Below, in pieces: positions 119-15,025 of a stretch of DNA of 34,130 nucleotides. Position numbers and translations under genes: made by a program. The stretch is from Acidobacteriota bacterium (GTDB taxonomy: Bacteria > Acidobacteriota > UBA6911). Location: the NCBI GenBank assembly GCA_012719455.1, contig JAAYAJ010000032.1, positions 1 to 34,130 on the forward strand, read 5' to 3'. The notes beneath the pieces were generated by a model. It searched no databases. It was not told the DNA's origin and saw nothing but the letters and a program-made list of their open reading frames with translations. The first letter of the stretch is position 1, and each line of letters begins with the position of its first letter.

Positions 119-246
119 CCGTACAGCCCTTTTCAAATTGTCGTCCCCCCGATAATGACCCGCGGCCGCAAGCCGCGCAGCACTTCTTCTTGTTGGGAGG
201 ACTCCGGGTCTATTCCGGTCTTTGCCATGAGCGCGGTTTTTCCGGT

Positions 247-1068
247 ATGAATGAACAGATCCTATTTGCCGGACTGGATGTCGGGTCGCTGACGAGCAAG
301 GCGGTGCTGCTCGGCGCGGACTCCGTCCTCGCGCACTGCACTGTTCCGACCGGTTCCAACCCGCGCCTGGCGGGAGAAAGGGCCCTGGAAGGCGCCCTGG
401 CGGGGGCGGGCAGGGACAAGGGGGCGATCGCCTACCTCGTCGGAACGGGATACGGCAGGGTGAACCTGCCCGGGGCGCAGCGCACCGTCACCGAGCTGAC
501 CTGCCACGCCCGCGGCGCCCATTTCGCCAATCCGAAGGCGCGGACCGTTATCGATATCGGGGGGCAGGACAGCAAGGTCATCCGGATGGATGCGAACGGG
601 AACATGGTCGATTTCGCGATGAACGACAAGTGCGCCGCGGGAACGGGGCGGTTCCTGGAGGTCATGGCCCGGGCGCTGGAATTGGACTTGGAGGATCTGG
701 GGGCGGTGGCCGAGCGCTCGGCCGCACCCTGCCCGATCAACAGCATCTGCGCCGTGTTCGCCGAGTCGGAGGTGGTCTCGTTGCTCGCTGCGGGACACGA
801 AAAGCAGGATGTCGTCGCGGGGCTGCACCAAGCGGTGGCGCAGCGGGTGGGGAACATGGCGGCGCGGATCGGGATCGAGGCCGAGGTGGTTTTCGTGGGC
901 GGGGTCGCCAAAAACAGGGGCGTGGCCCGGGCTCTGGAGCGCTTCCTCGGCATTTCCTTCGTCTCGCCGGTGGTGGATCCGCAGATCAACGGCGCCCTGG
1001 GCGCGGCCGTTCTGGCCAGGGATATTTATTACGGAGCGAATCATGCCGGGGGGCTGGGACTTCGATAG
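247..1068 (+). CDS. ATP-dependent activator of a dehydratase-like reductase (HgdC/YjiL, BadF/BcrA ATPase family)
   Basis: A 273-residue ASKHA-fold ATPase. Family members hold one [4Fe-4S] cluster between two identical subunits and use ATP hydrolysis to push a low-potential electron into a partner iron-sulfur reductase. Visible are the N-terminal phosphate loop LDVGSLTSK (about residues 10-18), the second nucleotide motif DIGGQDSK (103-110), and the two cluster cysteines C129 (NDKCAAGTG) and C168 (NSICAVF), at the spacing of known HgdC proteins. I chose ATG 247 because homologues start just before this point; a TTG at 190 would add 19 unlikely residues. A 7-codon ORF (227-250) ends across this start as an ATGA overlap and could couple translation. 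The gene is first in an operon, 29 bp before its likely partner reductase. Confidence 0.93.
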   Translation: MNEQILFAGLDVGSLTSKAVLLGADSVLAHCTVPTGSNPRLAGERALEGALAGAGRDKGAIAYLVGTGYGRVNLPGAQRTVTELTCHARGAHFANPKARTVIDIGGQDSKVIRMDANGNMVDFAMNDKCAAGTGRFLEVMARALELDLEDLGAVAERSAAPCPINSICAVFAESEVVSLLAAGHEKQDVVAGLHQAVAQRVGNMAARIGIEAEVVFVGGVAKNRGVARALERFLGISFVSPVVDPQINGALGAAVLARDIYYGANHAGGLGLR

Positions 1069-1097: not shown

Positions 1098-2267
1098 TTG
1101 GAACTGAAAGCGGACAAAACGATCTCCGAAACAAGAACCGATTTTTCCTATCGGCTGGAAATGGCCAAGGATGAGGGGAAGAAAGTCGTCGGCAGTCTCT
1201 GCTCCTATTTCCCGGTCGAACTTACCTTGGCCGCGGGCGCCATCCCCGTGGGCCTCTGCGGCACTACCTCGGAACCGATCGAGGCCGCCGAAAAGGTGCT
1301 GCCGGCCGACCAGTGCCCCATGGTCAAAGCGACTTACGGACGTTCGGTGGGGAATACCTGCCCGATCTTCCCCCTGGCCGACTGCATAGTGGGGGAGACG
1401 ACGTGCGACGGCCGCAAGAAGATGTACGAGCTCCTGGCCCGGGAGAAGCCGATGCACGTGATGGACCTGCCGCAGAAACCGGATGAGCCGGAAGCCCTGG
1501 AGCACTGGATTCACGAGGTCCGCAAATTGAGGGACTTTCTCAGCCGGCAGCTCGACGTTGCCATTACGGACGAAAGTCTCAGGCGCGTGATCCGGGGAAT
1601 GAACAAGGAACGCAGGCTGATGAAGGAGATCTACGCCTGCCGCAAGCACCACCCCGTGCCGATCATGGGGACGGACCTGGTCGGCCTGACGACGGCCCTG
1701 CACTATACGGTCGACCGGGAGGAGTACCGCAACAACCTGGCGTCGGTGCTGGCGGAGCTGCAGCGCCGGATCCGGGACAAGGAGTACGCCTGCGGACCGG
1801 AGCGCCCCCGGGTGCTCTGGACCGGGCTGGGCAACAGCCTGGGGTGTGACAAGGTGCTCCGGCTGGTGGAGGAATGCGGCGGGGTCGTGGTCTGCCAGGA
1901 AGGGTGCGGGGGTGTGACGCGCTCGGACAACCTGGTGGACGAGAACAAGGACCCGCTGGAAGCCCTCGCGGAGCGTTATCTCGGGGTCACCTGTGCCTGC
2001 ATGACGCCCAACAACATCCGGTTTGAGCAGATCGACCGGCTCATCCAGGAGTACGCCATAGAGGGGGTCCTGGACCTGACCTGGCAGTCGTGTCACGCGT
2101 TCAACATCGAGTCCTACCGGGTGTCGGAGATCGTGAAGGGGAAGCACGGGCTCCCCTTCCTGCATATCGTCACCGATTTTTCCCAGTCCGACATCGGGAC
2201 GCTGCGCGTCCGCATTGAAGGCTTCATCGAGCAGATGCTGTTACGGAGACAAAATGGCGCTCATTGA
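1098..2267 (+). CDS. Double-cubane-cluster-type anaerobic reductase, YjiM / 2-hydroxyacyl-CoA dehydratase D family (copy 1)
   Basis: A 389-residue single-subunit member of the HgdB/BcrC superfamily that most resembles E. coli YjiM and the double-cubane-cluster protein DCCP, which reduces small molecules with electrons from an ATP-driven activator. True 2-hydroxyacyl-CoA dehydratases need two different subunits; only one is present here, so a DCCP-like homodimer is more likely. Candidate cluster ligands are C35, C54, C73 (QCPMVK), C88, C96, C103 (GETTCDG) and the cysteine of WQSCH near the C-terminus. The TTG start at 1098 is chosen because AAAAGGAGG sits 7 nt upstream; the ATG at 1091 is in another frame. 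The end overlaps the ABC ATPase start by 14 nt, implying translational coupling. The substrate is unknown. A paralogue lies at 9832-11013. Confidence 0.9.
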   Translation: MELKADKTISETRTDFSYRLEMAKDEGKKVVGSLCSYFPVELTLAAGAIPVGLCGTTSEPIEAAEKVLPADQCPMVKATYGRSVGNTCPIFPLADCIVGETTCDGRKKMYELLAREKPMHVMDLPQKPDEPEALEHWIHEVRKLRDFLSRQLDVAITDESLRRVIRGMNKERRLMKEIYACRKHHPVPIMGTDLVGLTTALHYTVDREEYRNNLASVLAELQRRIRDKEYACGPERPRVLWTGLGNSLGCDKVLRLVEECGGVVVCQEGCGGVTRSDNLVDENKDPLEALAERYLGVTCACMTPNNIRFEQIDRLIQEYAIEGVLDLTWQSCHAFNIESYRVSEIVKGKHGLPFLHIVTDFSQSDIGTLRVRIEGFIEQMLLRRQNGAH

Positions 2268-3024
2268 CGCCCGGAAAGTCGGGAAGGTCTATGCCAACCG
2301 CAATGGCGAACCGACCGCTGCGCTCGAGGATTTCACCCTCGAGGTTGAAGCGAATGAGTTCGTCGGCATTGTCGGTCCCAGTGGATGCGGTAAAACGACG
2401 TTTTTGATGCTGGTGGCGGGATTGGAGACGTTGACCAGCGGGGAGCTTTTCCTGGAAGACCAGCCGGTAGAGGGGCCCGATCCCCGGCACGCCATCGTGT
2501 TCCAGGAGTTCCTGCTCTTCCCCTGGCGGACGGTCCGGCAGAACGTGGAATTCGGGCCCGAGGTCAGGGGTGTCTCCAGGGAGAAACGCCGGCAGATAGT
2601 GGACGGGTACATCAGCCTGGTGGGGCTGGAAGGATTCGAGGACCGCTACCCGCACGAGCTCAGCGGGGGGATGCGGCAGAAGGCGGCGATCGCCCGGGCC
2701 CTGGCGAATGAACCCCGGGTCCTGCTGATGGACGAGCCGTTCGCCTCGCTGGATGCGCTTACGCGCGAAACGCTCCAGCAGGAGCTTCTGCGGATCTGGC
2801 AGCAGACGGAGGCGACGGTGCTTTTCGTGACTCACAGCATCTCCGAAGCGGTCTTCCTATCGGACCGGGTGGTGGTGATGGGGCCGCGGCCGGGAAAGAT
2901 CCGAGGGGTGGCGCGAATCGGCCTGCCTCGTCCGAGGAAGAGGGAAATATTGACATCGCCCGAGTTTATGGGGTACGAGCGACATATCCGGGAACTGGTC
3001 TGGGATGAATCTCAAAGGAATTAG
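2254..3024 (+). CDS. NitT/TauT/SsuB-type ABC importer, ATP-binding subunit
   Basis: A 256-residue ABC ATPase that would power an inner-membrane importer from the cytoplasmic face. It has Walker A GPSGCGKTT (41-49), a Q-loop in FQEFLLFPW, the signature LSGGM (136-140), Walker B LLMDEP (157-162), D-loop SLD and the H-loop histidine in VTHS. The sequence type belongs to the nitrate/sulfonate/taurine importer family, whose members carry small organic or inorganic anions, thiamine precursors and others. The substrate cannot be read from the ATPase. The start overlaps the end of the reductase gene by 14 nt and the stop overlaps the permease start by 20 nt. Transporter and reductase are therefore translated as one block. 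Confidence 0.95.
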   Translation: MALIDARKVGKVYANRNGEPTAALEDFTLEVEANEFVGIVGPSGCGKTTFLMLVAGLETLTSGELFLEDQPVEGPDPRHAIVFQEFLLFPWRTVRQNVEFGPEVRGVSREKRRQIVDGYISLVGLEGFEDRYPHELSGGMRQKAAIARALANEPRVLLMDEPFASLDALTRETLQQELLRIWQQTEATVLFVTHSISEAVFLSDRVVVMGPRPGKIRGVARIGLPRPRKREILTSPEFMGYERHIRELVWDESQRN

Positions 3025-3793
3025 CGGGCGCCTGTCCGCAAAGCGGTACGCGTCGCCGGCGGTCCTCATCGTTGCCTGGGAGCTGGTCGGCCGGCTGGGC
3101 CTGGTGGATCCCTTTTTCCTTCCGGCCCCCACCAGGATCCTGGGTTCGATGTGGAGCCTGGTGCTGAACGGCGAGCTGTTCCGGCATATGAGCGTCAGCC
3201 TCTACCGGTCTCTCGGCGGTTATTTCCTCGCGCTGGTTCTGGGTCTCGGCTTCGGCGTTCTCATCTGCTGGTCGCGCCGCGCCGAGGATATCCTGGATCC
3301 GGTATTCGAATTGCTGCGGCCGGTGTCCACGCTGGGACTGGTGCCGCTCGTGATCATCTGGTTCGGGATCGGGAACGGGTCCAAGATCGCCATTGTGCTG
3401 AAAGCCTGTTTTTTCCCGATTCTCCTGAACACGGTGGCGGGGATCAAGGGAGTCAACCTCAAGCTGATCCACGCGGCCCGTTCCCTGGGGGCGAGCGAAT
3501 ACCAGATCTGGACTAAGGTCATTTTCCCGGCCGCGCTGCCGGTGATCTTCACCGGCATGAGGATTTCCACCGCCATTTCCATGATGTCCATCGTAGGGGT
3601 GGAAATGCTGGCGGCCGATTCCGGGCTGGGCTTCATGATCGTCGATGCCCAGCGCCTGTTTGATACGACCAGGATGTTCGTTGGAATCATTACCCTGTCT
3701 GTTTTGGGTTTTTGTATGGATTACGCCGCCCGGATGCTGCAGAAGCGCTTTGTCGGATGGCACGCGGACAGCCTGGCCGCGGGCAAGATATAG
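3005..3793 (+). CDS. NitT/TauT/SsuC-type ABC importer, permease subunit
   Basis: A 262-residue inner-membrane permease of the binding-protein-dependent type with about six hydrophobic segments. The cytoplasmic loop that docks the ATPase is seen as HAARSLGASEYQIWTKV, the family EAA motif, roughly residues 157-173. ATG 3005 is used; it overlaps the ATPase gene by 20 nt. It forms the membrane channel for the importer built with the ATPase at 2254-3024 and the lipoprotein at 3803-4786. Length and motif are normal and nothing looks broken. Confidence 0.94.
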   Translation: MNLKGISGRLSAKRYASPAVLIVAWELVGRLGLVDPFFLPAPTRILGSMWSLVLNGELFRHMSVSLYRSLGGYFLALVLGLGFGVLICWSRRAEDILDPVFELLRPVSTLGLVPLVIIWFGIGNGSKIAIVLKACFFPILLNTVAGIKGVNLKLIHAARSLGASEYQIWTKVIFPAALPVIFTGMRISTAISMMSIVGVEMLAADSGLGFMIVDAQRLFDTTRMFVGIITLSVLGFCMDYAARMLQKRFVGWHADSLAAGKI

Positions 3794-3802
3794 GAGAAGG
3801 CA

Positions 3803-4786
3803 ATGAAAAGATTTATCGGGTTTCGGAAGCCGGCGGCCTGCGCCCTGCTGGCCGGTTTCGCGCTCATGCTGTTGGCAGGGGCCGCGTGCACCCGGAACAA
3901 GGAGTTGCCGGTGGTCCGGCTGGCCTATACCCGCTCGATCGACGACCTCCCGTTTTTTGTCGGCATGGAGGAGAAACTGTTCGAGCGGGAGGGGGTGCGC
4001 GTGGAGATGACGCGTCTCACAGGCAATACCTCGGCGCTTGCGGGGGTGATGCGCAACGATATCCAGGCCGCGGTCATCGGGCTGCCGCAGGTCTACTCCG
4101 CCGCCGGGCAGTCCATTCCCATCAAGGTGGTTGCGTGGTTGGGCCGGACTCATCCGGGCACCCACTGCGGACTTCACGTGCGCAAAGACGCCCCTATTTA
4201 TGATCTCGAGGACCTGCGCGGCAAACGCATTGCCGTCAGCGGCGACGTCAGCAGCCGCATGGTGGTGTACCAGGCGCTGGAGCAAGGGGGGGTGGCGGCC
4301 GAGGACGCCCAGATCATCCTGGGCCTGGAAATGAGCGAACCGATGCAGCACGAGGCCGTGCTCAAGACCGGAAAGGTGGATGTCGTCATCGCTTGAGACC
4401 CCACCGCTACCATGCTTGAATCGCATGGTGTGAGTCGCATGTTGCGATCCTTCAACGATATCCTGCCCGGCTACGTGTTTACGGGCGTCTACTTCAGCGA
4501 CCGGTACCTGGCGTCCCATGCCCGGGAGGTGCGCGCGTTCCTGCGCGGGCTGGTCCGGTCCTTCGAATTCATCAAAACCAACGAGGCCGCGGCCCGGCGT
4601 CATATCCCCAAGTATACCGGTGTTTCCGACGACGTGGCGCGCAAGTGCGCCCTGCGCGATCTCAGCGGCGGCGGGCGGGAACCCTTCGAGATGCTGGACC
4701 GCCAGCGCGATCTGCTGGTGAAACACGGCCTATTCAAGAACAAAGAGACCCTGAAGGGGATCGTGGATTATCAATACCTGCCCTGA
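3803..4786 (+). CDS. NitT/TauT-type ABC substrate-binding lipoprotein with an in-frame UGA (candidate selenoprotein)
   Basis: A 327-codon solute-binding protein for the importer encoded just upstream. The start at 3803 has AGGAG close by, and the N-terminus is a lipoprotein-like signal (about residues 1-28, LLAGAAC, C29). The frame is open to a TGA at 4394-4396 (codon 198, after VDVVIA). It then continues without a frame change as DPTATMLESHG and so on to 4786, which is the expected C-terminal lobe. The two parts share one frame, so this is a single-codon interruption and not an indel. A SECIS-like hairpin follows the UGA and the window encodes SelA, SelB, SelD and tRNA-Sec, so selenocysteine is possible. 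Many relatives carry Trp at about this place, so a TGG-to-TGA nonsense change is the main alternative. Confidence 0.85.
4394..4432 (+). promoter_or_regulatory. In-frame UGA with SECIS-like hairpin in the binding-protein gene
   Basis: The UGA is at 4394-4396. Downstream, ACCATGC (4409-4415) pairs perfectly with GCATGGT (4423-4429) around the 7-nt loop TTGAATC. CAC (4402-4404) and GTG (4430-4432) extend the stem below a 4-nt bulge. The apical loop starts 22 nt after the U of the UGA, inside the range used by bacterial SECIS elements bound by SelB. The loop has a G at its third position, whereas the usual consensus has it at position 1 or 2. The pairing is seen in the sequence; SECIS function is inference. 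Confidence 0.45.
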
Positions 4787-4863: not shown

Positions 4864-6990
4864 ATGTACAGGTTAATATTGTTGCTCTTCTGCCTGCTGT
4901 GCCCCGCGGCCTGGGCGGAAGACGCAAGCGACGGATCGTCGACGGGGGACAAGGCTCCCCCGGGCGAAAGTGCGCAAACCCTGGAGGTTGGCCCGCAGGG
5001 GGACGAGTCCCGCCCCCGGGAAAAGGCCAAGCTCACCATTGCGCCGCAGACGGTCGTGGTCACGGCCGGCTTTCAAGCCGGGGCGGTGGCCCTGGAACCT
5101 ACCAAAACCGTGATCGACTTGACGCAGTTCGAGTCCAGCGGTTCCGTGGACAGGGTGGAAGACGTCCTCAAGCACATGTCAGGGATCGACGTCATCCAGA
5201 CGACCGGAGGCGCCGACCCGCAGCAGATGGTCATGATGCGTGGATTCGACGACAGCCGGTTCCAGGTGGCCATCAACGGCCGGCCGATCACGGCCCCCAC
5301 CGCGGGTGCGGATACCTTCGTGGACTGGTCAAGTCTGACCACCGGGGATATCGAACGGATCGAGGTGATCCGGGGCTCCGCATCGGCCCGGTATGAAAAC
5401 TCGGTTGGCGGCATCATCAACATCATCACCAAAAAGGGGCGCCGGGAAGGCAGTTCGGTGCCGCGGGCTTCCGCCGACGTGACCTACTCGAGCTTCAACT
5501 CCCTGAATACCAGGGGCACGGTCAACGGAGGGGTGGGTCAGCTGGGTTATTTCATCAGCTTCGGCAACCGGACCTCGGACGGCTTTCTGAGGAACAATTA
5601 CTTCGAAGGCCAGGATTACAGCGGGCGGCTCGATTATGCGCTGCCGGGCGGCGGTTCGTTATCGTCATCCTACAAGCGCAACGAGCTGGAGCACGGGTAC
5701 CCCGTGGTCAACGATCCGAACAGTGCTTTTTCAGACTACAATCCGGATTATCCCATCGTCTTCGAGGATGCGGACTCCCTTCGGATGGGGCGTCTGGTAT
5801 CCCACCCCGGCGGAAAGTCGTACAAGATCAAGAAGGCGACGCACCTGGATTTCAGCTACGACCAGCCGATCAAGAACACGCACCTGTCCCTGAAGGTCTT
5901 CCGGGACTGGGGTTCGGAGGACAGCTATTCCTACCAGCGCTCCGGCGCCGGCCTGGCCCAGGCCTTCAGCGGGAGGGGGGATCGCAAGGAAAAGACCTTC
6001 GGTGTCATGTTCGATTACCAGTTGAACTTGTGGGCACGGCACTCACTGGCGATCGGGTACAGCCATCGGCGCATGGGGGTGGAGAACACGCCCGACATCT
6101 ACCGCATCCAGGGCGCCTATATCGAGGACCAGTATGCCGTAAACAACAAGCTGACCCTGAACATGGGAATCCGTTTCATGCATGTGCGGGAACAGAGTTA
6201 CGCTTACAGCGATCCGGGGTCTTCGTTCAAGTATCGGCATCTCTTCCACCCCAAGGAATGGTTGCCGAAGTTTACAGCCACCTACCGCTTCAATCCGGAG
6301 ACGGAAATCTACGCCTCAGTGAACCGGGACTACCACGTCCCTGGGTGTTGAGAACGCTCACGCTGGGCCTCTGCCGGGCTCATGGATTCTTTTTTGAAGC
6401 CGGAAACAAGTATCAGTTACGACGCCGGACTGTATCGCCGTATCGGTCAGAATCTCGATATGCGGATCGCGGTGAATTACATCAACACCAGCAACTACTA
6501 TGTCACAAACACCACGTCTCCGTATTACAGCGGCTCCTACGCCTACCAGATCGAGGGGGTGAAGTTTTACGGAACGGAGCTTGAATTCAACTGGAAAGCC
6601 ACCGAAAAGCTGATCTTTTTCGGCAACTACTCCTACCAGAACAACGCGTATTCGTTGGGTGAAGAGTTCCCCTATCCGATGCTGCTCAACCTGCCGCCGA
6701 AGAACAAGGGGAAGCTCTCGATCCGCTACACCCTGCCTTTTAAAACGCGGCTTTCGTCGGATGTTATCATCTACGGCGAACGGCTGAGTGAAGGCGGATA
6801 CACGCTGGACGGCTATGCCACCGCCGACCTCAGCCTGGAGCGGAATTTCGCCGGCAGGATGATGGCGTCATTCTATATCAACAACCTCACCGGGACCGAG
6901 TACCAGCAGGTCTACGGATACCCCTCCCCAGGGGTGACTTGGGGGGTGCGGTTGAAGATCAGCACGGCCAGGAACATCTTCTCCCAGTAG
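4864..6990 (+). CDS. TonB-dependent outer-membrane receptor with an in-frame UGA (candidate selenoprotein)
   Basis: A 709-codon receptor (stop included) for energised uptake across the outer membrane. It has a signal peptide ending near AWA (residue 18), a TonB-box-like QTVVVTA (62-68), a plug domain (about 60-175, with MVMMRGFDDSRFQVAINGRP and GGIINIITKKG) and a long beta-barrel. The start at 4864 has GGGAGG 7 nt upstream. A TGA at 6349-6351 (codon 496, after HVPGC) interrupts the barrel. The same frame then continues through FLKPETSISYDAGLY, the usual receptor motif, to 6990. No other lesion is visible. A hairpin follows at the same distance as in the binding-protein gene. If decoded as selenocysteine it would form a vicinal Cys-Sec pair; a Trp-to-stop mutation or assembly error remains possible. 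The gene ends the operon before a terminator. Confidence 0.87.
6349..6382 (+). promoter_or_regulatory. In-frame UGA with SECIS-like hairpin in the TonB receptor gene
   Basis: The UGA is at 6349-6351. TGGGCC (6364-6369) pairs with GGCTCA (6377-6382) using one G-U pair, and T6370-G6376 can close a 5-nt loop CTGCC (6371-6375). The stem begins 15 nt and the loop about 22 nt after the U of the UGA, the same offsets as in the binding-protein gene. The loop carries a G at its third position. The geometry suits a bacterial SECIS, but short GC-rich hairpins are common in this DNA. Confidence 0.4.
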
Positions 6991-7011
6991 GGGAGAAGGG
7001 TCTGCAAACCA

Positions 7012-7076: not shown

Positions 7077-7170
7077 TGGCGGAGGTGAATGGGAGTTGAA
7101 CCCACCTGCCGCGATGAAGCGGCGCGACGATTTTGAAGACCGCGGGAGCCACCGGGCCCCGCTCACCTCC
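7077..7170 (-). tRNA. selC: tRNA-Sec (anticodon UCA)
   Basis: Read on the minus strand, 94 nt fold as a selenocysteine tRNA. The acceptor arm has 8 bp (GGAGGTGA with TCACCTCC), discriminator G and an encoded CCA at 7079-7077. The anticodon loop is CTTCAAA with UCA. A long variable arm closes with GCCGC/GCGGC, and the T arm has loop TTCAACT. The long acceptor and the variable arm are the marks of tRNA-Sec. It sits 88 nt after the selD-containing ORF on the same strand, so it is probably cotranscribed with it. It reads UGA after serylation and conversion by SelA. Confidence 0.96.
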
Positions 7171-7258: not shown

Positions 7259-7624
7259 TTATTTGCTGTTCCGCACGCGCGTATACATGACCAGTGACGG
7301 GGAGCCGCCGAAGGCCACGCCCAGCATCGCCGCTTCGTCCATTTCCGCCGGGGTGAAACCGCCCTGGCGGGCCTTCTGCATGTGGGCCTTCAAGCAGGGC
7401 TCGCATCTCGTCGCCACCGACAGCGCGATCTGGATCGCCTGCTTGGTGAACGCGTCCAGGTTCCCGGGCCGACCGGCCGCGTCCAGGAACTGCTGGTAAA
7501 GACCTTCCGTTCCGGCTTCCGCCGACGGCGCCGCCCCTTCCGAGCAGCAAGCGGAGGTTGCATCCGGGCTGCAGCATGCGGTTGTCTGGGTTGCGGGTGT
7601 CGATTCGGGTGCTTTCGTAGTCAT
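7259..7624 (-). CDS. Possible separately translated CMD/AhpD-like protein (internal start within the selD fusion)
   Basis: From ATG 7624 the frame gives a 121-residue protein, the normal size of a small carboxymuconolactone-decarboxylase-family protein. It carries two Cys-Cys pairs near the N-terminus and the redox motif CEPC three residues before a histidine. An AAGGAG lies 7 nt upstream of this ATG. In the usual arrangement a selD stop would lie just before it, but the SelD frame here runs straight through the ribosome site as SGKRRLPM. Both fused and free products are possible. Confidence 0.45.
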   Translation of the reverse strand: MTTKAPESTPATQTTACCSPDATSACCSEGAAPSAEAGTEGLYQQFLDAAGRPGNLDAFTKQAIQIALSVATRCEPCLKAHMQKARQGGFTPAEMDEAAMLGVAFGGSPSLVMYTRVRNSK

Positions 7625-8836
7625 GGGCAGTCTCCTTTTTCCACTGGTTTCGATGTATACGCGTCCTTCCCCCTTTTGGCGCACTTTCCCGATGATGCAG
7701 GCGTCCTCGACGCCGGCGTCGTGCAAACTCTTGAGCAGCCGCACGGCGGTTTCCGGGGCCACCGCCATGAGCAGGCCCCCGGAGGTCTGGGCGTCGAAGC
7801 ACATGTCGAGCATGACCTCCCCTACTTCTTCCCCTGCGTAGACCCGGCTGCCGCACGATTCCTTGTTCCGTTCGATCCCCCCGGGCAGGATCCCCTCCGC
7901 GGCGTACTGCAGAACGTGGGGGAACCAGGGGAGATCGTCCCAGCGGATTTCCACGTCCACGCCGCTCCGGAGCGCCATCTCCGACAGGTGTCCCATGAGT
8001 CCGAAACCGGTCACGTCGGTGCAGGCGTGCACCCCGTGCCGCTCCATCTCCCCGGCGGCGCTCCGGTTGAGGGTGGTCATCGAGCGGACGGCCGCGGCCA
8101 GCGATTCCTCGCGCGCCCGGCCGATCTGCTTGGCGAAGGCCACGATGCCGGTCCCCAGGGGTTTGGTCAGGATCAGGACGTCCCCGGCCCGGGCGCCGGC
8201 ATTGGTCGTCACCCGGTTCTTGTCGATCAGCCCCGTGACGGCGAAGCCTGCCTTGATCTGGTCGTCGTCGATGCTGTGGCCGCCGATGACGGGCACCCCC
8301 GCCTCGGCCATCTTGTCGATGCCGCCCCGCAGGATCTCGCGCAGGACGCTGTCGGCCAGCTTGCGCACCGGGAATCCAACGATGGACAGGGCCGTGAGCG
8401 GGCGTCCCCCCATGGCGTAGACATCGCTGAGGGAATTCGCGGCCGCCACCTGTCCGAACTGGTAGGGGTCGTCGACGGATGGGGTGAAAACGTCGACGGT
8501 CTGGACCAGGGCCGTCGCCTCATCGAGTGCGTAGACCCCCGCGTCGTCCCCCGCCGGCATGCCCACGAGTACGCGCGGGTCCTCCAGGGTGGGCAGGTCC
8601 GAAAGCGCGGCCTTGAGAAAAGCCTGGTCGATTTTGGAAGCGCAGCCCGCCTTTTCCACCAGTTGCGTCAGGGCTACGGGGCCGGAAGGAACCTCGAGCC
8701 GCTCCCCGGCGCAGAGACAGATGTCCTTCTCCTTGAAGAGATCGCAGGGGCAGGGTTTGGCTGCATCGCAGATGCAGTGCCCCAGGCGGATTGAACGCTG
8801 CATGATGCGTTTTCTTTTTTCTAGATCTTTGGTCAT
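7259..8836 (-). CDS. selD: Selenophosphate synthetase SelD with a Cys-rich N-terminal extension, fused to a CMD/AhpD-like domain
   Basis: A 525-residue ORF. SelD makes selenophosphate from selenide and ATP for SelA. The SelD core runs from about residue 50 to 400, with catalytic C65 and K68 (KAGCASK), nucleotide motif GDDAGVY and the typical QFGQVAAANSLSDVYAMGG. Residues 1-50 are an extension with C21, C23, C29, C31, C40 and C42 in three CxC pairs, likely to bind metal or carry selenium. No stop separates SelD from residues 405-525, a carboxymuconolactone-decarboxylase-like domain with CEPC before a His, as in AhpD-type thiol peroxidases, preceded by two Cys-Cys pairs. The start at ATG 8836 has TGAGG upstream; ATG 8848 overlaps the activator stop and is the alternative. 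An internal ribosome site suggests the last domain may also be made alone. Confidence 0.92.
   Translation of the reverse strand: MTKDLEKRKRIMQRSIRLGHCICDAAKPCPCDLFKEKDICLCAGERLEVPSGPVALTQLVEKAGCASKIDQAFLKAALSDLPTLEDPRVLVGMPAGDDAGVYALDEATALVQTVDVFTPSVDDPYQFGQVAAANSLSDVYAMGGRPLTALSIVGFPVRKLADSVLREILRGGIDKMAEAGVPVIGGHSIDDDQIKAGFAVTGLIDKNRVTTNAGARAGDVLILTKPLGTGIVAFAKQIGRAREESLAAAVRSMTTLNRSAAGEMERHGVHACTDVTGFGLMGHLSEMALRSGVDVEIRWDDLPWFPHVLQYAAEGILPGGIERNKESCGSRVYAGEEVGEVMLDMCFDAQTSGGLLMAVAPETAVRLLKSLHDAGVEDACIIGKVRQKGEGRVYIETSGKRRLPMTTKAPESTPATQTTACCSPDATSACCSEGAAPSAEAGTEGLYQQFLDAAGRPGNLDAFTKQAIQIALSVATRCEPCLKAHMQKARQGGFTPAEMDEAAMLGVAFGGSPSLVMYTRVRNSK
7632..7637 (-). promoter_or_regulatory. Internal ribosome binding site within the selD fusion ORF
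   Basis: AAGGAG on the minus strand, 7 nt before the in-frame ATG at 7624, lies inside the continuous SelD-CMD reading frame. Its strength and spacing match those before real genes in this window. It is the evidence for an independent CMD product or for a recent loss of the selD stop codon. Confidence 0.6.
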
Positions 8837-8844
8837 CGTAGTCC

Positions 8845-9633
8845 TCATGGTTCGAGTGATTGATTTTGACGGGAGGCCAGGATCGCGGCCCCCAGGGCTC
8901 CCGTGAACTGGGGATGAAGTGCAACCGTGACCGGACGGCCGAGTGCGCGGGACAGCGCCCCGGCCATTCCCGGCATCCGCGCGACTCCGCCGGTCAGGTG
9001 TACGGGGCCCGGGTCCCGGTTCCCGAGCATGCCCGCGACGCGGGCGGCGACCGACACCTGGACTCCCGCCATGATGTCCTGTCCGGGTACGCCGGAGGCC
9101 AGCAGCCCTATGATCTCCGTCTCCGCGAATACGACGCACATGCTGCTGATCGCCGCCGGATTTGAGGAGTCCGCGGCCGCGCGGGCCACCTCGTCCAGGC
9201 TCCCTTGCAGACGGCGGGCCACGATTTCCAGGAACCTCCCGGTGCCCGCGGCGCAGCGGTCGTTCATGGCGAAATCCTGCACCTTCCCCACGTCGTTCAG
9301 GCGGATCACCTTGCTGTCCTCTCCCCCGATGTCGACGATGGTCCGAGCCTCCGGGTGCAGGCGGCGCACTCCGACCGCGTGGCAGGTGATCTCCGTAACG
9401 GCGGCGTCGGCGAACTCGAGGGCGTTGCGGCCATATCCCGTTGCCACGGTGCCGGCGACCGTGGCGGCGGAGCCCAGGTGCGCCCTTATGGTTTCCCGGT
9501 ACAGGGATGCGGCAATGTCCGCCTGGTCCAACCCCTGGTCCCGGATGGCGCGGGCGATCATATCTCCCTTTACGGTGTCGTAAAGGACCAGCTTGATGGT
9601 GCGGGAACCCGAGTCGATGCCTGCGTAGATCAT
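8845..9633 (-). CDS. ATP-dependent activator of dehydratase-like reductase (HgdC/YjiL family), copy 2
   Basis: A 262-residue ASKHA ATPase paralogous to the one at 247-1068, and the likely electron donor for the reductase at 9832-11013. It has the N-terminal phosphate loop GIDSGSRTIK (5-14), DIGGEDSK (101-108) and bridging-cluster cysteines C127 (NDRCAAGTG) and C166 (SSMCVVF). Its ATG (9633) overlaps the stop of the small upstream ORF as ATGA. Its own stop overlaps the first possible ATG of selD as ATGA. This tight packing ties the reductase activator directly to selenophosphate synthesis. Confidence 0.93.
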   Translation of the reverse strand: MIYAGIDSGSRTIKLVLYDTVKGDMIARAIRDQGLDQADIAASLYRETIRAHLGSAATVAGTVATGYGRNALEFADAAVTEITCHAVGVRRLHPEARTIVDIGGEDSKVIRLNDVGKVQDFAMNDRCAAGTGRFLEIVARRLQGSLDEVARAAADSSNPAAISSMCVVFAETEIIGLLASGVPGQDIMAGVQVSVAARVAGMLGNRDPGPVHLTGGVARMPGMAGALSRALGRPVTVALHPQFTGALGAAILASRQNQSLEP

Positions 9634-9851
9634 GGGTGACGGTTCTCCTTGATGGTTTCCACCAGGGCTTCGAGCCGGGTGCGCGTGCCGAGGCTCAGCG
9701 CATCGGCGATGGGTGGGACCTCGATCTCCGCCGCCGGAGGACCGTCATCCCCGGCGCCCCCGACCGAATAAAGGATTGCCCGGGGATCGGGCCCGTGGGC
9801 CGTGATCCAACTTCCCGGGATATGGGGGCCGCTATGCGGAATGTGCGGCAT
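9630..9851 (-). CDS. Unknown 73-residue protein between reductase and activator
   Basis: I do not recognise this small protein. ATG 9851 has AGGAG 4 nt upstream, inside the end of the reductase gene, and overlaps it by 20 nt. Its stop overlaps the activator start as ATGA. The N-terminus is rich in His and Pro (MPHIPHSGPHIPGSW); the rest is soluble and ends in a predicted helix (RTRLEALVETIKENR). There are no cysteines and no signal or membrane segment. Conserved packing in a coupled operon argues that it is translated. A His-rich N-terminus could bind metal, but that is a guess. Confidence 0.65.
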   Translation of the reverse strand: MPHIPHSGPHIPGSWITAHGPDPRAILYSVGGAGDDGPPAAEIEVPPIADALSLGTRTRLEALVETIKENRHP

Positions 9852-11013
9852 GGGACTCCTGGCGGTGGCTGCGGGCGGTTTCGAAGAGCGCCTCCAGGCG
9901 CACGCGCAGACGCGCGGAATCGGAGGGCGCGTAATCGGTGGAAATCCGCAAATACGGGATATTGCCAACCTCCTCCGCCCATTGCCGGATGCGCCAGGAT
10001 TCCACGTCGTAGGTCAAACATGCCTGCCAGGACAGGTCCACGATGCAATGGGGCTTGAAAATCCCGGCCATTTCCGAGAGCAGGTCGATCCGCCCGTCGT
10101 TCGGCGTCATCACCGAGCAGGGGATGCTCATATACTTGAGTGCCAGAGCCTTCATCAGGTCCTCCGCCTCTTCGTCCACGTCTTCCCAGATCGGCTTGAT
10201 GCCGGTGCAGTTTTCCATGCACACGACGAGGCCCCCGCACTCCTCGATCAGGTCGACCACCCTTTCGGCCCCATGAACTGTGGGGACGCCCGACAGGAGG
10301 ACCCGTACCCGCTTCCGGTTGGGCTCGTGGCTGCGGTGCTCGAGCTCCCGCAGCAGCGAGGCGTACACTTCCAGGTCCGCGTCGATGCAGGAGATGATGC
10401 TTTTGCAGTCCAGCAGCTGTCTTCCCGTGAGGGGAGGCGCCTCGTGCGCCATCAACAGGGCCAGGTCCCGGCGCAGCTTCCGTTCCCGGTTCATCTTCCG
10501 GACGGCGTCCCGCAGTGCTTCGTCGGTGATGCGGACCGAGAACCGCCGCTCGAGGCCGTCCCGGAACTTGGCCAATTCGGCGTACCAGTGGGTGAAGGCG
10601 TCGCGGTCGTCCGGTTTCTGGGGCAGTTCCAGGACCACCATCTCGCGCGTGCGCGCCAGGAGTTCGTACATCTTCTTTTTGCCATCGCACGTCGTTTCGC
10701 CGACCAGCAGGTCGGCCATTTCCAGGAAGGGATTGGCCTTCTGCACGTGATACCCGTAAGTGGATTTGATCAGGGGGCAGAGATTGGCGGGCAGCTCCGT
10801 CTCCGCGGGTCCGATCATTTCGAGGTCCCCCCCGCAGAGGCACACGGGGACTCCTCCCGCCGCCATGATGAGCTCGCGCGGAGCGTATTCGCACAGGATC
10901 CCGACTATGGGCCTGCCCTGGCTTTTGGCCGCTTGCGCATGTTCCAGGCAGTGGGGGATCATGTCTTCAAACCAGGCCAGAGTCGGCCCCTGGTTGTCGT
11001 GGCAACAAGTCAT
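9832..11013 (-). CDS. Double-cubane-cluster-type anaerobic reductase, YjiM / 2-hydroxyacyl-CoA dehydratase D family (copy 2)
   Basis: A paralogue of the reductase at 1098-2267, about 393 residues, keeping the family cysteines in ILCEYAP, CLCGG, LCPLIKSTYG, VGETTCDGKKKMYE and WQAC. Like copy 1 it stands alone without a second dehydratase subunit, which favours a homodimeric DCCP/YjiM-type ATP-dependent reductase over a CoA-ester dehydratase. I prefer ATG 11013 because GGAG lies 6 nt upstream; ATG 11025 would add four residues. It is the first gene of an overlapping operon running into the small ORF, the activator, SelD and tRNA-Sec. That context is the best evidence for a selenium-related role; the substrate is unknown. 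Confidence 0.9.
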   Translation of the reverse strand: MTCCHDNQGPTLAWFEDMIPHCLEHAQAAKSQGRPIVGILCEYAPRELIMAAGGVPVCLCGGDLEMIGPAETELPANLCPLIKSTYGYHVQKANPFLEMADLLVGETTCDGKKKMYELLARTREMVVLELPQKPDDRDAFTHWYAELAKFRDGLERRFSVRITDEALRDAVRKMNRERKLRRDLALLMAHEAPPLTGRQLLDCKSIISCIDADLEVYASLLRELEHRSHEPNRKRVRVLLSGVPTVHGAERVVDLIEECGGLVVCMENCTGIKPIWEDVDEEAEDLMKALALKYMSIPCSVMTPNDGRIDLLSEMAGIFKPHCIVDLSWQACLTYDVESWRIRQWAEEVGNIPYLRISTDYAPSDSARLRVRLEALFETARSHRQESHAAHSA

Positions 11014-11138
11014 GTCATTCTCCATGTGAATTCACCGTTTCTCGGTGACGAAAAGGCCCCGGACGATTTTGCCCGCGTGGACCATTTCCTGTATGAAATG
11101 TCAGTTTCCCGGCCAATGCGTACATCCTGCCGGCAAGC

Positions 11139-11691: not shown

Positions 11692-13101
11692 ATGGAACGT
11701 CAGGAAAATCAGGTTATGCGATTCCTCCCGTCCGTGGATTCGGTGCTCCAAACGCTGCCGATGAAGCCGGAGGATCGGGTGTTCGATCAGGAGATCGTGA
11801 CCCGCATTGTTCGCGAGCAGAAGGAAGCAATGCGGGAAGAGATAAGGAAGGGGAGATACAAGGATGCGGACCGGGCGGCGCTGTCACGGGAGATGTCGCG
11901 GCGGTGCCTGCATGAACTGGAATCGCTGCGGCGTCCCTTTTATCAGAAGGTGATCAATGCCAGCGGCATCATTCTGCATACCGCCCTGGGCCGCGCGGTG
12001 CTCGCGCCCGAGGCGCTGGAGGAAATCGAGAAGGAGTTGTCCGGCTACTCCAGGCTCCAGATCGGCCTGGGTTCGGGACAGCGGTCCCGCAGGGATGAAG
12101 GGGTGGAGCGCCTCCTCAGGCTCTTGACGGGGGCGGAAGCGGCGACCGTTGTCAACAACAACGCCGCCGCCACCGCCATCGTGCTCAATACGATCGGCAA
12201 AGGGAGGGAAGTGATCGTATCCCGCGGGCAGCTGGTTGAAATCGGCGGAGAGTTCCGGTTGCCCGAGGTCATGGCTTTCAGCGGGGCGAAGATGGTGGAA
12301 GTGGGGACCACCAACAAGACGCATGCCCGGGATTACGAGCGGGCGATCACGGAAGACACCGTCGCGATCCTGAGGGTGCACCCGAGCAATTACAAAATCC
12401 AGGGATTCACCGCGGAGGTGCCCCTGGAGGAGATGGTTCATATCGCGCACAGCCGGGGTCTCATACTGATTGACGACGTGGGCGCCGGTTCCCTCATGGA
12501 CATGTCGCCGTTCGGTTTCGATCCTGAGCCCACCCTGCAGCAATCGGTGGCGGCAGGGTCGGACATCATCACCAGCAGTGCGGACAAGCTGATCGGCGCT
12601 TCCCAGGGGGGCATCATCCTCGGGCGCCGGGACCTGGTCCAGGCCGTGCGCCGGAACCAGTTCGCGCGCATCCTGAGAGTCGGTAAATTGACCCTTGCGG
12701 CCTTGGAATCCACGCTCAAACTGTTCCTGGACCCCGATTCGGCAAAGACGAAACTGCCTACCCTGGAAATGATCCTGCGCACCCCCGAAGAACTGAACGC
12801 GGTCGCATGCCGAATGGCCGACCGGCTGAGCGACCTTTCGGAATGCGCCGAGATCCACACGGTCCCCGGGTTTTCGCAGACGGGGAGCGGGTCGCTTCCG
12901 GCGCAGAACCTTCCGACTACGCTGTTGGCGGTTCAGCCGAAAGCCATGTCCGCCCAGGCGCTGGCGGACCGCCTGCGCCTGTACCGAACGCCCATCATCA
13001 GCAGGATTCAGAACGAACAGGTATGGATGGACCCAAGAACGTTGCGCGGCGACGAGGCCGAGGATGTGATCCAGGCGTTGCGCGAGATTCTGGCGAGGTG
13101 A
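11692..13101 (+). CDS. selA: L-seryl-tRNA(Sec) selenium transferase
   Basis: A 469-residue PLP enzyme that converts Ser-tRNA(Sec) to Sec-tRNA(Sec) with selenophosphate. The length is normal for SelA. Typical blocks are ILHTALGRAVL (about 94-104), VNNNAAAT (154-161), VGTTNKTHARDY and the PLP lysine K299 in SSADKLIGASQGG. ATG 11692 has AGGTGA just upstream; a second ATG at 11716 is possible. selB starts 10 bp after its stop, forming a selAB operon divergent from the selD-selC operon. Confidence 0.97.
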   Translation: MERQENQVMRFLPSVDSVLQTLPMKPEDRVFDQEIVTRIVREQKEAMREEIRKGRYKDADRAALSREMSRRCLHELESLRRPFYQKVINASGIILHTALGRAVLAPEALEEIEKELSGYSRLQIGLGSGQRSRRDEGVERLLRLLTGAEAATVVNNNAAATAIVLNTIGKGREVIVSRGQLVEIGGEFRLPEVMAFSGAKMVEVGTTNKTHARDYERAITEDTVAILRVHPSNYKIQGFTAEVPLEEMVHIAHSRGLILIDDVGAGSLMDMSPFGFDPEPTLQQSVAAGSDIITSSADKLIGASQGGIILGRRDLVQAVRRNQFARILRVGKLTLAALESTLKLFLDPDSAKTKLPTLEMILRTPEELNAVACRMADRLSDLSECAEIHTVPGFSQTGSGSLPAQNLPTTLLAVQPKAMSAQALADRLRLYRTPIISRIQNEQVWMDPRTLRGDEAEDVIQALREILAR

Positions 13102-13111
13102 AGAGAAACCC

Positions 13112-15025
13112 ATGAACCAGAAAAATATCACCCTTGGAACGGCGGGACATATCGACCACGGCAAGACGGCGCTGATCCGGAACCTGACCGGATGCGAAAC
13201 GGACCGGCTCCGGGAAGAGCGGGAACGCGGCATGTCCATCGAGCTCGGCTTCGCCCCCTGGAAGGTGGGCGACCTCGAGGTCGGCATCGTCGATGTCCCC
13301 GGGCATGAAAATTTTGTCAAGACCATGGTGGCCGGGGCCACCGGGATCGACGCGGTGATCCTGGTCATCGCCGTCGACGACGGGATCATGCCGCAGACAC
13401 GGGAGCACCTGGAGATCCTGTCACTGCTCGGGGTGGAGCACGGGGTCGTGGTGCTGACCAAGGTGGACAAGGTAACGGCGGAGCGCCTCGGGGCCGTACG
13501 CGGGGAAGTACGGGATTACCTCCAGGGAACCTTCCTTCGGGATGCCCCGGTCTATCCCTTTTCGAACGTGACCGGGGAGGGGTTCGAGCCGTTCTATGAC
13601 GGACTGCTCGACCTGGTGCGCCGGCTGAAACCCAAACAGACCGATGGTATCTTCCGTCTTCCGATTGAGCGCACCTTTTCGGTGAAGGGGTACGGCACCA
13701 TCGCTTCGGGCATTCCCGTCAGTGGGGCCGCGCAGGTGGGCGACCCGGTGATCGTGCACCCGGCCGGGCTCCCCGGAAGGATCAAGGCCATCCAAGTCTA
13801 CCAGGTCCAGGCCGAAAGGGTTCAGTGCGGGCAGTGCGCGGCCCTTAACGTACCCCAATGGGATGCCGGAGCGCTTTCACGCGGGGACGTCATCACCCTG
13901 GACGGGTGGTTCTCCCCCGGTTCCTGGTACCTGTGCGAAATGGAAATTCTCCCCCTGGAGGGACCGGGTCTGAAGCATGGCGCCGAGGTCAGGTTTCATA
14001 CCGGGACATCGGAGTCCACCGCTACGGTATACCTGCTCGAAGGGGACCGGGCTGCCGGGGGGACGCGCTCGCTTGTTCAGGTGCAACTCGGCCAGCAGAT
14101 CGTGGCCGGGCCCATGGACCGTTTCATCCTGCGCGCGCTTTCCCCGGCGCGTACCATCGGCGGCGGCGTCGTTATCGAGGCGCTGGAAAGAAAACTGCGG
14201 CGCAGCCGGCCCGAGGTCGTGGAGGATGCGAAGCGGCGAGCCGCTGCGGTGCAAAACGATGCGGATTTTGCCGAATACGCGGTTCTTTCCGCTCCCGACG
14301 GCGCCATATCGGTGAAGGCCGTGGCCCATCGGATCAAAAAGGCGTTGCCCGGCACGGAGAAACTACTGCAGGGCCTGGCCGGGTCGGGCGCCGTGATTGC
14401 GCTGGAGCAGGGGCTTTTCATGCATGCCCGGACCGTGGAAACCCTGGGGCTCAAGGCCCTAAAGCGGCTAGCAATGTACCACCAGTCCGACCCTGCAAGC
14501 CCCGGGATGCCCCTGGACGCCGTCGCGGCGGAGTACGGGTGGGAGCGGCCGGTGGCCGCCAGGGTCTTCGGCGACCTGGCACATGCCGGCAAGGCGCGCA
14601 TTGAAAACGGTGTCGTGTGCCTTGCCGGGCACAGCGTCCGTTTCGATTCGGCGGAGGAGAAGAGACTACAGAGGGTGGAGCGCCTCTTTCTCGAACGGAT
14701 GTTCAACCCGCCGGAAAGGGGGGATCTGCCGGACCTGTGCGGGCTGACCGCAAAGGAGGCCGATAATGCCCTGCGGCTGCTGGTGGAGCACCGGCGCCTG
14801 GTGAGGATCGACCGGAACCTCCACTTCCATGTGGACGCTGTCGCCAAGGCAAGGGAGATCGCCGTCGGGCATCTCCGCAAGGAAAACAGGCTGGAAAGCG
14901 TCGCATGGAAATACCTGATCGACACTTCGCGCAAGTACGCCCTGCCGCTGCTCGATTATTTCGACAGGATCGGGGTCACCAAGCGGGCGCCCGACAACAC
15001 GCGGCACCTGGGGCCCCGGGCCTGA
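13112..15025 (+). CDS. selB: Selenocysteine-specific elongation factor SelB
   Basis: A 637-residue GTPase that delivers Sec-tRNA(Sec) to UGA codons next to a SECIS hairpin. G1 is GHIDHGKT (12-19), G3 DVPGHENF (61-68) and G4 TKVD (116-119). Two beta-barrel domains follow, and the C-terminal third has the winged-helix repeats that bind the SECIS, ending in RIGVTKRAPDNTRHLG as in full-length SelB. The protein looks intact, so the host should decode UGA as selenocysteine. Its stop lies 30 bp from the convergent dsrC stop. Confidence 0.97.
   Translation: MNQKNITLGTAGHIDHGKTALIRNLTGCETDRLREERERGMSIELGFAPWKVGDLEVGIVDVPGHENFVKTMVAGATGIDAVILVIAVDDGIMPQTREHLEILSLLGVEHGVVVLTKVDKVTAERLGAVRGEVRDYLQGTFLRDAPVYPFSNVTGEGFEPFYDGLLDLVRRLKPKQTDGIFRLPIERTFSVKGYGTIASGIPVSGAAQVGDPVIVHPAGLPGRIKAIQVYQVQAERVQCGQCAALNVPQWDAGALSRGDVITLDGWFSPGSWYLCEMEILPLEGPGLKHGAEVRFHTGTSESTATVYLLEGDRAAGGTRSLVQVQLGQQIVAGPMDRFILRALSPARTIGGGVVIEALERKLRRSRPEVVEDAKRRAAAVQNDADFAEYAVLSAPDGAISVKAVAHRIKKALPGTEKLLQGLAGSGAVIALEQGLFMHARTVETLGLKALKRLAMYHQSDPASPGMPLDAVAAEYGWERPVAARVFGDLAHAGKARIENGVVCLAGHSVRFDSAEEKRLQRVERLFLERMFNPPERGDLPDLCGLTAKEADNALRLLVEHRRLVRIDRNLHFHVDAVAKAREIAVGHLRKENRLESVAWKYLIDTSRKYALPLLDYFDRIGVTKRAPDNTRHLGPRA

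Follow-up and report, generated by a model that had tools for sequence, protein, structure and literature searches.

Genes and features of the locus

The window, i.e. the whole stretch of 34,130 nt analyzed here, contains a gene for an ABC-type substrate-binding protein (SBP) whose reading frame is interrupted only once, by a TGA in codon 198 (Table 1), as the preceding sequence-only reading of this DNA had described. When this codon is read as selenocysteine (Sec), the NMT1/SsuA-type profile match spans both lobes of the protein, and its score with PF09084 (NMT1/THI5-like superfamily, 73 bits) is above the gathering threshold of 20.5. The sequence-only reading had called the product an ABC substrate-binding lipoprotein. 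The binding-protein part of this annotation stands, while the lipoprotein part is not established, as the window SBP has a signal-like helix and lacks a clean lipobox (LVTGC is present in the homologue from locus L091).

Table 1. Features of the SBP locus, with window coordinates and the basis of each assignment
Feature	Position	Strand	Basis
Acyl-CoA-dehydratase-type activase (ATP-dependent electron activator, BadF/HgdC family)	190..1068	+	TIGR00241, 271 bits (cut-off 125)
Double-cubane-cluster-containing anaerobic reductase	1113..2267	+	NF040772, 463 bits (cut-off 350)
ABC transporter ATPase (TauB/SsuB/SaoA-like)	2215..3024	+	Profile match; conserved beside SBP
ABC transporter permease (TauC/SsuC/SaoP-like)	3005..3793	+	Profile match; gene neighborhood
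SBP, predicted selenocysteine at residue 198	3803..4786	+	UGA alignment, fold match
In-frame UGA, codon 198, predicted to be read as selenocysteine	4394..4396	+	UGA in 10/10 clade members
Candidate SECIS hairpin	4406..4431	+	Stem 4409-4415/4423-4429, outer pairs 4406-4407/4430-4431
TonB-dependent receptor with Cys-Sec motif (NF049946 family)	4864..6993	+	868 bits (867.8), cut-off 700; one in-frame TGA
Second in-frame UGA (VPGC-U), predicted Sec codon of the receptor (residue 496)	6349..6351	+	C-U conserved in L089, L090, L091, L100
tRNA-Sec gene	7077..7170	-	Above curated cut-off
SelD (selenophosphate synthetase) with C-terminal AhpD/CMD domain, one frame	7259..9139	-	TIGR00476, 378 bits; TIGR00778, 42 bits
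SelA	11692..13101	+	TIGR00474, 533 bits (cut-off 268)
SelB	13112..15025	+	TIGR00475, 294 bits (cut-off 242)

The window also encodes tRNA-Sec, SelD, SelA and SelB, in agreement with the sequence-only reading, and all four score above curated cut-offs. SelB was found in all five genomes tested. The SelD gene is an apparent SelD-AhpD fusion, with the CEPC motif in its AhpD/CMD domain. Beside it on the same strand there is a second activase/double-cubane reductase pair (8845-9633 and 9832-11025). The genome of the window has a second SelB (G000 C39:92652-94532, loci L046 and L054; 371 bits) with no tRNA-Sec nearby, which reflects either the presence of SelB in two copies or a mixed bin.

The order activase, double-cubane reductase, ATPase, permease, SBP is repeated in five homologous loci (L043, L040, L088, L091, L096), in each of which the first gene of this conserved operon, the activase, has a counterpart. 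In L090 the operon is kept from the reductase onward, and the remaining loci are truncated by contig ends or hold transposase-like ORFs upstream. The reductases of homologous operons are 60-73% identical.

The gene directly downstream of the SBP encodes a TonB-dependent receptor with an in-frame UGA of its own, on which the sequence-only reading was silent. Such a receptor, with the UGA in the context VPGC-U, directly follows the SBP gene in the window, L089, L090 and L091. The window receptor, the partner of the SBP, is a full member of the NF049946 (TonB_dep_CU) family; the scores of the L090 and L091 receptors are even higher (1161 and 1148 bits, cut-off 700). Among 395 genomes drawn from the phylum of L032, the locus of a close relative (see below), only four have an NF049946 receptor above the cut-off, and all four also have the UGA-containing SBP (hypergeometric p = 5e-9). 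In the fourth of these genomes, G781, the receptor is separated from the SBP by about 11 kb, including TonB/ExbBD genes. The adjacent C-U receptor is absent from all four Desulfobulbales operons. No description of a Sec-containing SBP beside an NF049946 receptor was found in the literature searched.

Several other genes were observed in the homologous loci. In all four Desulfobulbales operons the SBP gene is followed by a gene for an uncharacterized secreted protein of about 155 residues (L032:5939-6412, L040:173-640, L041 at about 6391-6810, L042:9541-10002), the L032 copy of which has no NCBIfam match. In G781, NapG/NapH-like ferredoxins are encoded directly after the SBP (L088:6211-7859), which suggests an extra electron supply. 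Related TonB receptors from L101, L102 and L103, scoring under the NF049946 cut-off, have an in-frame UGA in LPCP-U-DYYW and probably belong to the PCPU-type family.

Conservation of the in-frame UGA

Relatives of the SBP were collected in four steps. A scan of a genome collection yielded one close relative, L032 (a Desulfobulbaceae MAG), whose SBP is 43% identical to that of the window and has TGA at the same codon. A search of the order of L032 added three more, the 395-genome draw from its phylum four, and the order of G781, one of these four genomes, one. All ten members of the resulting group, i.e. the window and nine further genomes, have UGA at the column of codon 198, although the eight homologues aligned beside the window SBP are only 38-47% identical to it. 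In the phylogenetic tree UGA-bearing SBPs form a single clade (support 100/99). A search of 395 other genomes from the phylum of the window itself yielded no homologue, and there were no close relatives in the viral contigs and plasmids searched. In addition to a complete gene, G781 has a truncated copy comprising about 90 residues around the UGA, located beside a transposase-like ORF (L092:6673-6945).

The sequence-only reading had raised the counter-argument that relatives often carry Trp at this place. This is correct for neighboring clades, but not inside the UGA clade: column 198 is occupied by Trp in 15, by Pro in 9 and by Ile in 1 of the 25 next-closest proteins, the Trp-bearing ones belonging to clades of sulfonate/nitrate-type binding proteins. 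Since TGG and TGA differ by a single change, the window gene could in principle be a pseudogene of a Trp-type SBP, produced by a nonsense mutation or by a sequencing error. The identical UGA in nine other genomes with divergent sequences and the purifying selection acting on both lobes make the probability of this explanation negligible, and conservation of the UGA at codon 198 thus excludes a nonsense mutation. The alignment of homologues across this codon, proposed in the sequence-only reading as a check, therefore favors selenocysteine. No Cys-containing orthologue was found within the UGA clade, the nearest relatives having Trp or Pro, and hence the classical Sec/Cys pair is missing here.

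Alternatively, the N-terminal lobe could end at the UGA, with the C-terminal lobe being translated as a separate protein from ATG204, a codon shared by all members compared, whose first base lies 18 nt past the start of the UGA. The four codons 199-202, lying between the UGA and this next in-frame ATG, encode D P x A in every member compared (GAC CCN NNN GCN), with synonymous changes at codons 200 and 202. Conservation of this segment at the protein level, accompanied by synonymous changes, means that translation crosses the UGA in frame and argues against restart at ATG204. Moreover, ATG204 is located within the hairpin described below, and in the predicted structure the split would separate strand 194-197 from helix 201-207 within one folded lobe. 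Two separate proteins are thus very unlikely.

Hairpin downstream of the UGA

The hairpin reported in the sequence-only reading is present as described: a perfect 7-bp stem with a 7-nt loop occupies positions +15 to +35, counted from the U of the UGA. Its folding energy in the single sequence is ordinary (z = -1.2; 23 of 200 shuffled sequences fold equally well), and thus the weight of the hairpin comes from its conservation. The inner six base pairs are invariant in all nine sequences compared; as the seventh pair outward, five of them have A-U and two G-C, and in the other two this pair is broken. Codons 203-208, covering the hairpin, rank first in third-base conservation among about 280 windows along the gene, the same top window being obtained with five and with nine sequences. 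Codon 207 encodes Ser, Ala, Met or Glu, but its third base is always the stem-closing G. Position 2 of the loop is U in the window and G in the other eight aligned sequences.

Covariation in the hairpin is weak: there is one pair in which both bases have changed, and the observed score is reached by 84 of 500 shuffles. When synonymous codons are shuffled, the hairpin energy falls under the 5% level in just one of the nine genes. Hence, the candidate hairpin is well conserved, yet unproven by covariation. The regions following the UGA of the TonB-dependent receptor, folded in four sequences, have no common shape.

Relation to previously predicted Sec-containing binding proteins

The sequence-only reading knew of no established Sec-containing NitT/TauT-type binding protein. 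In fact, Sec-containing SBPs have already been predicted, namely SaoX (NF040735) and SaoB (NF040727) (Haft and Gwadz 2023, via the review PMC13188914); in this review SaoX is presented as a predicted Sec-containing binding protein with the U-x-P motif. SaoX appears to have Cys or Sec at the same column as the window SBP: with different residues placed at position 198 of the query, the SaoX profile gave Cys an advantage of 6-7 bits over Trp, Ser and Ala, a preference measured by profile substitution rather than on a SaoX sequence. In the same comparison, the SsuA and taurine profiles prefer Trp. The motif at the window UGA, U-D-P, fits U-x-P. Together with the Cys preference of the SaoX profile, this indicates that the column of codon 198 very likely corresponds to the Sec site of SaoX.

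None of the tested NCBIfam models reaches its cut-off on SBPs of the UGA clade. These proteins score 42-73 bits with the SaoX model, far below its cut-off of 300, in contrast to the shared fold family, the same column favoring Cys or Sec and the common motif. With TIGR01728 (SsuA_fam) they score 88-133 bits (cut-off 163.5); the SBP is also below the cut-off of TIGR01729 (TauA) and has no match to the SaoB model at E 0.01. A search for SaoX in 199 related genomes gave no match, but the controls were also silent, so that it says nothing on the absence of SaoX. The partners of the window SBP are the C-U TonB receptor and the double-cubane reductase, the comparison with SaoX covering the proteins themselves.

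The in-frame UGA could also be read as Trp or another amino acid by suppression or recoding without selenium, as might be expected from Trp at column 198 in related clades and from the preference of the SsuA and taurine profiles. This reading is very improbable. The SBP gene itself terminates in TGA (4784-4786), hence UGA is a stop codon here; the complete Sec machinery is encoded in the same window; the SaoX profile favors Cys at this column; the in-frame UGA of the next gene belongs to a curated selenoprotein family (NF049946); and the conserved hairpin is consistent with SelB-type recoding. The proposal of the sequence-only reading that the gene encodes a candidate selenoprotein is thus supported by the UGA in ten of ten clade members, the Sec machinery in the window and the presence of SelB in each genome tested. 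As far as can be judged from comparison of sequences, the interpretation of UGA198 as selenocysteine in a full-length class II SBP is strongly supported. According to this comparative evidence, the codon would be decoded by the neighboring SelA, SelB, SelD and tRNA-Sec, directed by the hairpin at 4406-4431.

Predicted fold and ligand-binding site

The predicted structure of the SBP has a class II fold (mean pLDDT 88.8), and its closest matches in the structure search are SsuA, TauA, NrtA/CmpA and thiamin-precursor binding proteins, with Z-scores of 27-30 overall. The two-lobe architecture is shared with TauA and SsuA (TM about 0.7, Z 27-28), from which the window SBP differs in having Sec where they have Trp and in scoring under the cut-offs of both corresponding models.

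In the sequence alignment, Sec198 corresponds to Trp176 of TauA, and the invariant Cys122 to Glu106 (the TauA numbering offset was derived from chain ranges of the structure match); due to a gap nearby, the latter assignment is good to one or two residues. In TauA both Trp176 and Glu106 contact the bound MES ligand, and the Glu106Ala substitution abolishes taurine binding (PMC6906117). Sec198 would therefore replace the ligand-contacting Trp of TauA/SsuA-type proteins, near Cys122, and, given that both residues fall at ligand-contact positions of TauA, the ligand is probably held by a selenol-thiol pair. Six residues, H117, C122, H125, M181, U198 and H208, are invariant in the UGA clade and absent from the 25 next-tier proteins; judging from this pattern, they may be soft-metal ligands forming a soft-ligand site.

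Proposed import pathway and its substrate

The reductase of the operon is a clear homologue of the double-cubane cluster protein, DCCP (6ENO, Jeoung and Dobbek; 256 bits against chain 6eno/7yyl; NF040772 family). No physiological substrate is known for DCCP (PMC11971306), whereas the window reductase is associated with an import chain of its own. The gene order suggests that a ligand may pass from the Sec-containing (C-U) TonB-dependent receptor to the Sec-containing SBP and, via the ABC permease and ATPase, into the cytoplasm, where it would be delivered to the double-cubane-cluster reductase charged by the ATP-dependent activase. Taken as a whole, an SBP with Sec198 acting in a Sec-dependent import chain that feeds a double-cubane reductase is the best explanation of the data, and we consider it highly probable.

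The least certain part of this explanation is the substrate. It might be a soft compound binding to thiols and selenols, such as an organometal, metalloid or chalcogen compound, cleaved or reduced by the reductase. The main rival to this guess, which concerns the substrate and not Sec, is an ordinary organosulfonate or other organosulfur cargo, with the reductase breaking the C-S bond for sulfur assimilation and Sec serving only as a redox switch. The closest folds and profiles of the SBP are indeed SsuA and TauA, and a nitrogenase-like enzyme of another bacterium is reported to assimilate the sulfonate isethionate (PMC11423573). On the other hand, a Sec-bearing TonB-dependent receptor is unexpected for small sulfonates, and the soft-ligand residues are invariant in the UGA clade. 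An organosulfur cargo is thus rather unlikely, though still a serious competitor of the preferred soft ligand.

The adjacency of the Sec-containing SBP to a second Sec protein, an outer-membrane receptor, suggests a selenium-dependent route of uptake not described before. Tentatively, the Sec-containing receptor and the Sec-containing SBP, with Sec at the site of the ligand-contacting Trp, could relay a soft ligand through the ABC transporter to the double-cubane reductase, supplying its physiological substrate; we regard this specific version as possible, with the odds somewhat against it.

Sec-containing SBPs (SaoX and SaoB) and Sec-containing TonB receptors are already known as predictions. 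What is new is a further family of Sec-containing SBPs, in whose nearest relatives the Sec site is occupied by Trp or Pro and not by Cys, and the links of this family to the C-U receptor and to the double-cubane reductase. Because of the Trp or Pro in its nearest relatives, pipelines relying on Cys/Sec pairs likely miss this family. The combination of the three proteins is not described in the papers searched, a set not including Haft and Gwadz 2023 and Haft and Tolstoy 2025. Two Sec-containing transport proteins are thereby linked to a member of the double-cubane reductases, an enzyme class whose low-potential chemistry is unusual and for which no physiological substrate is known. If the proposed pathway is correct, this orphan enzyme class would gain a physiological substrate, and the purified Sec-containing SBP would provide a direct handle on the substrate of the reductase.
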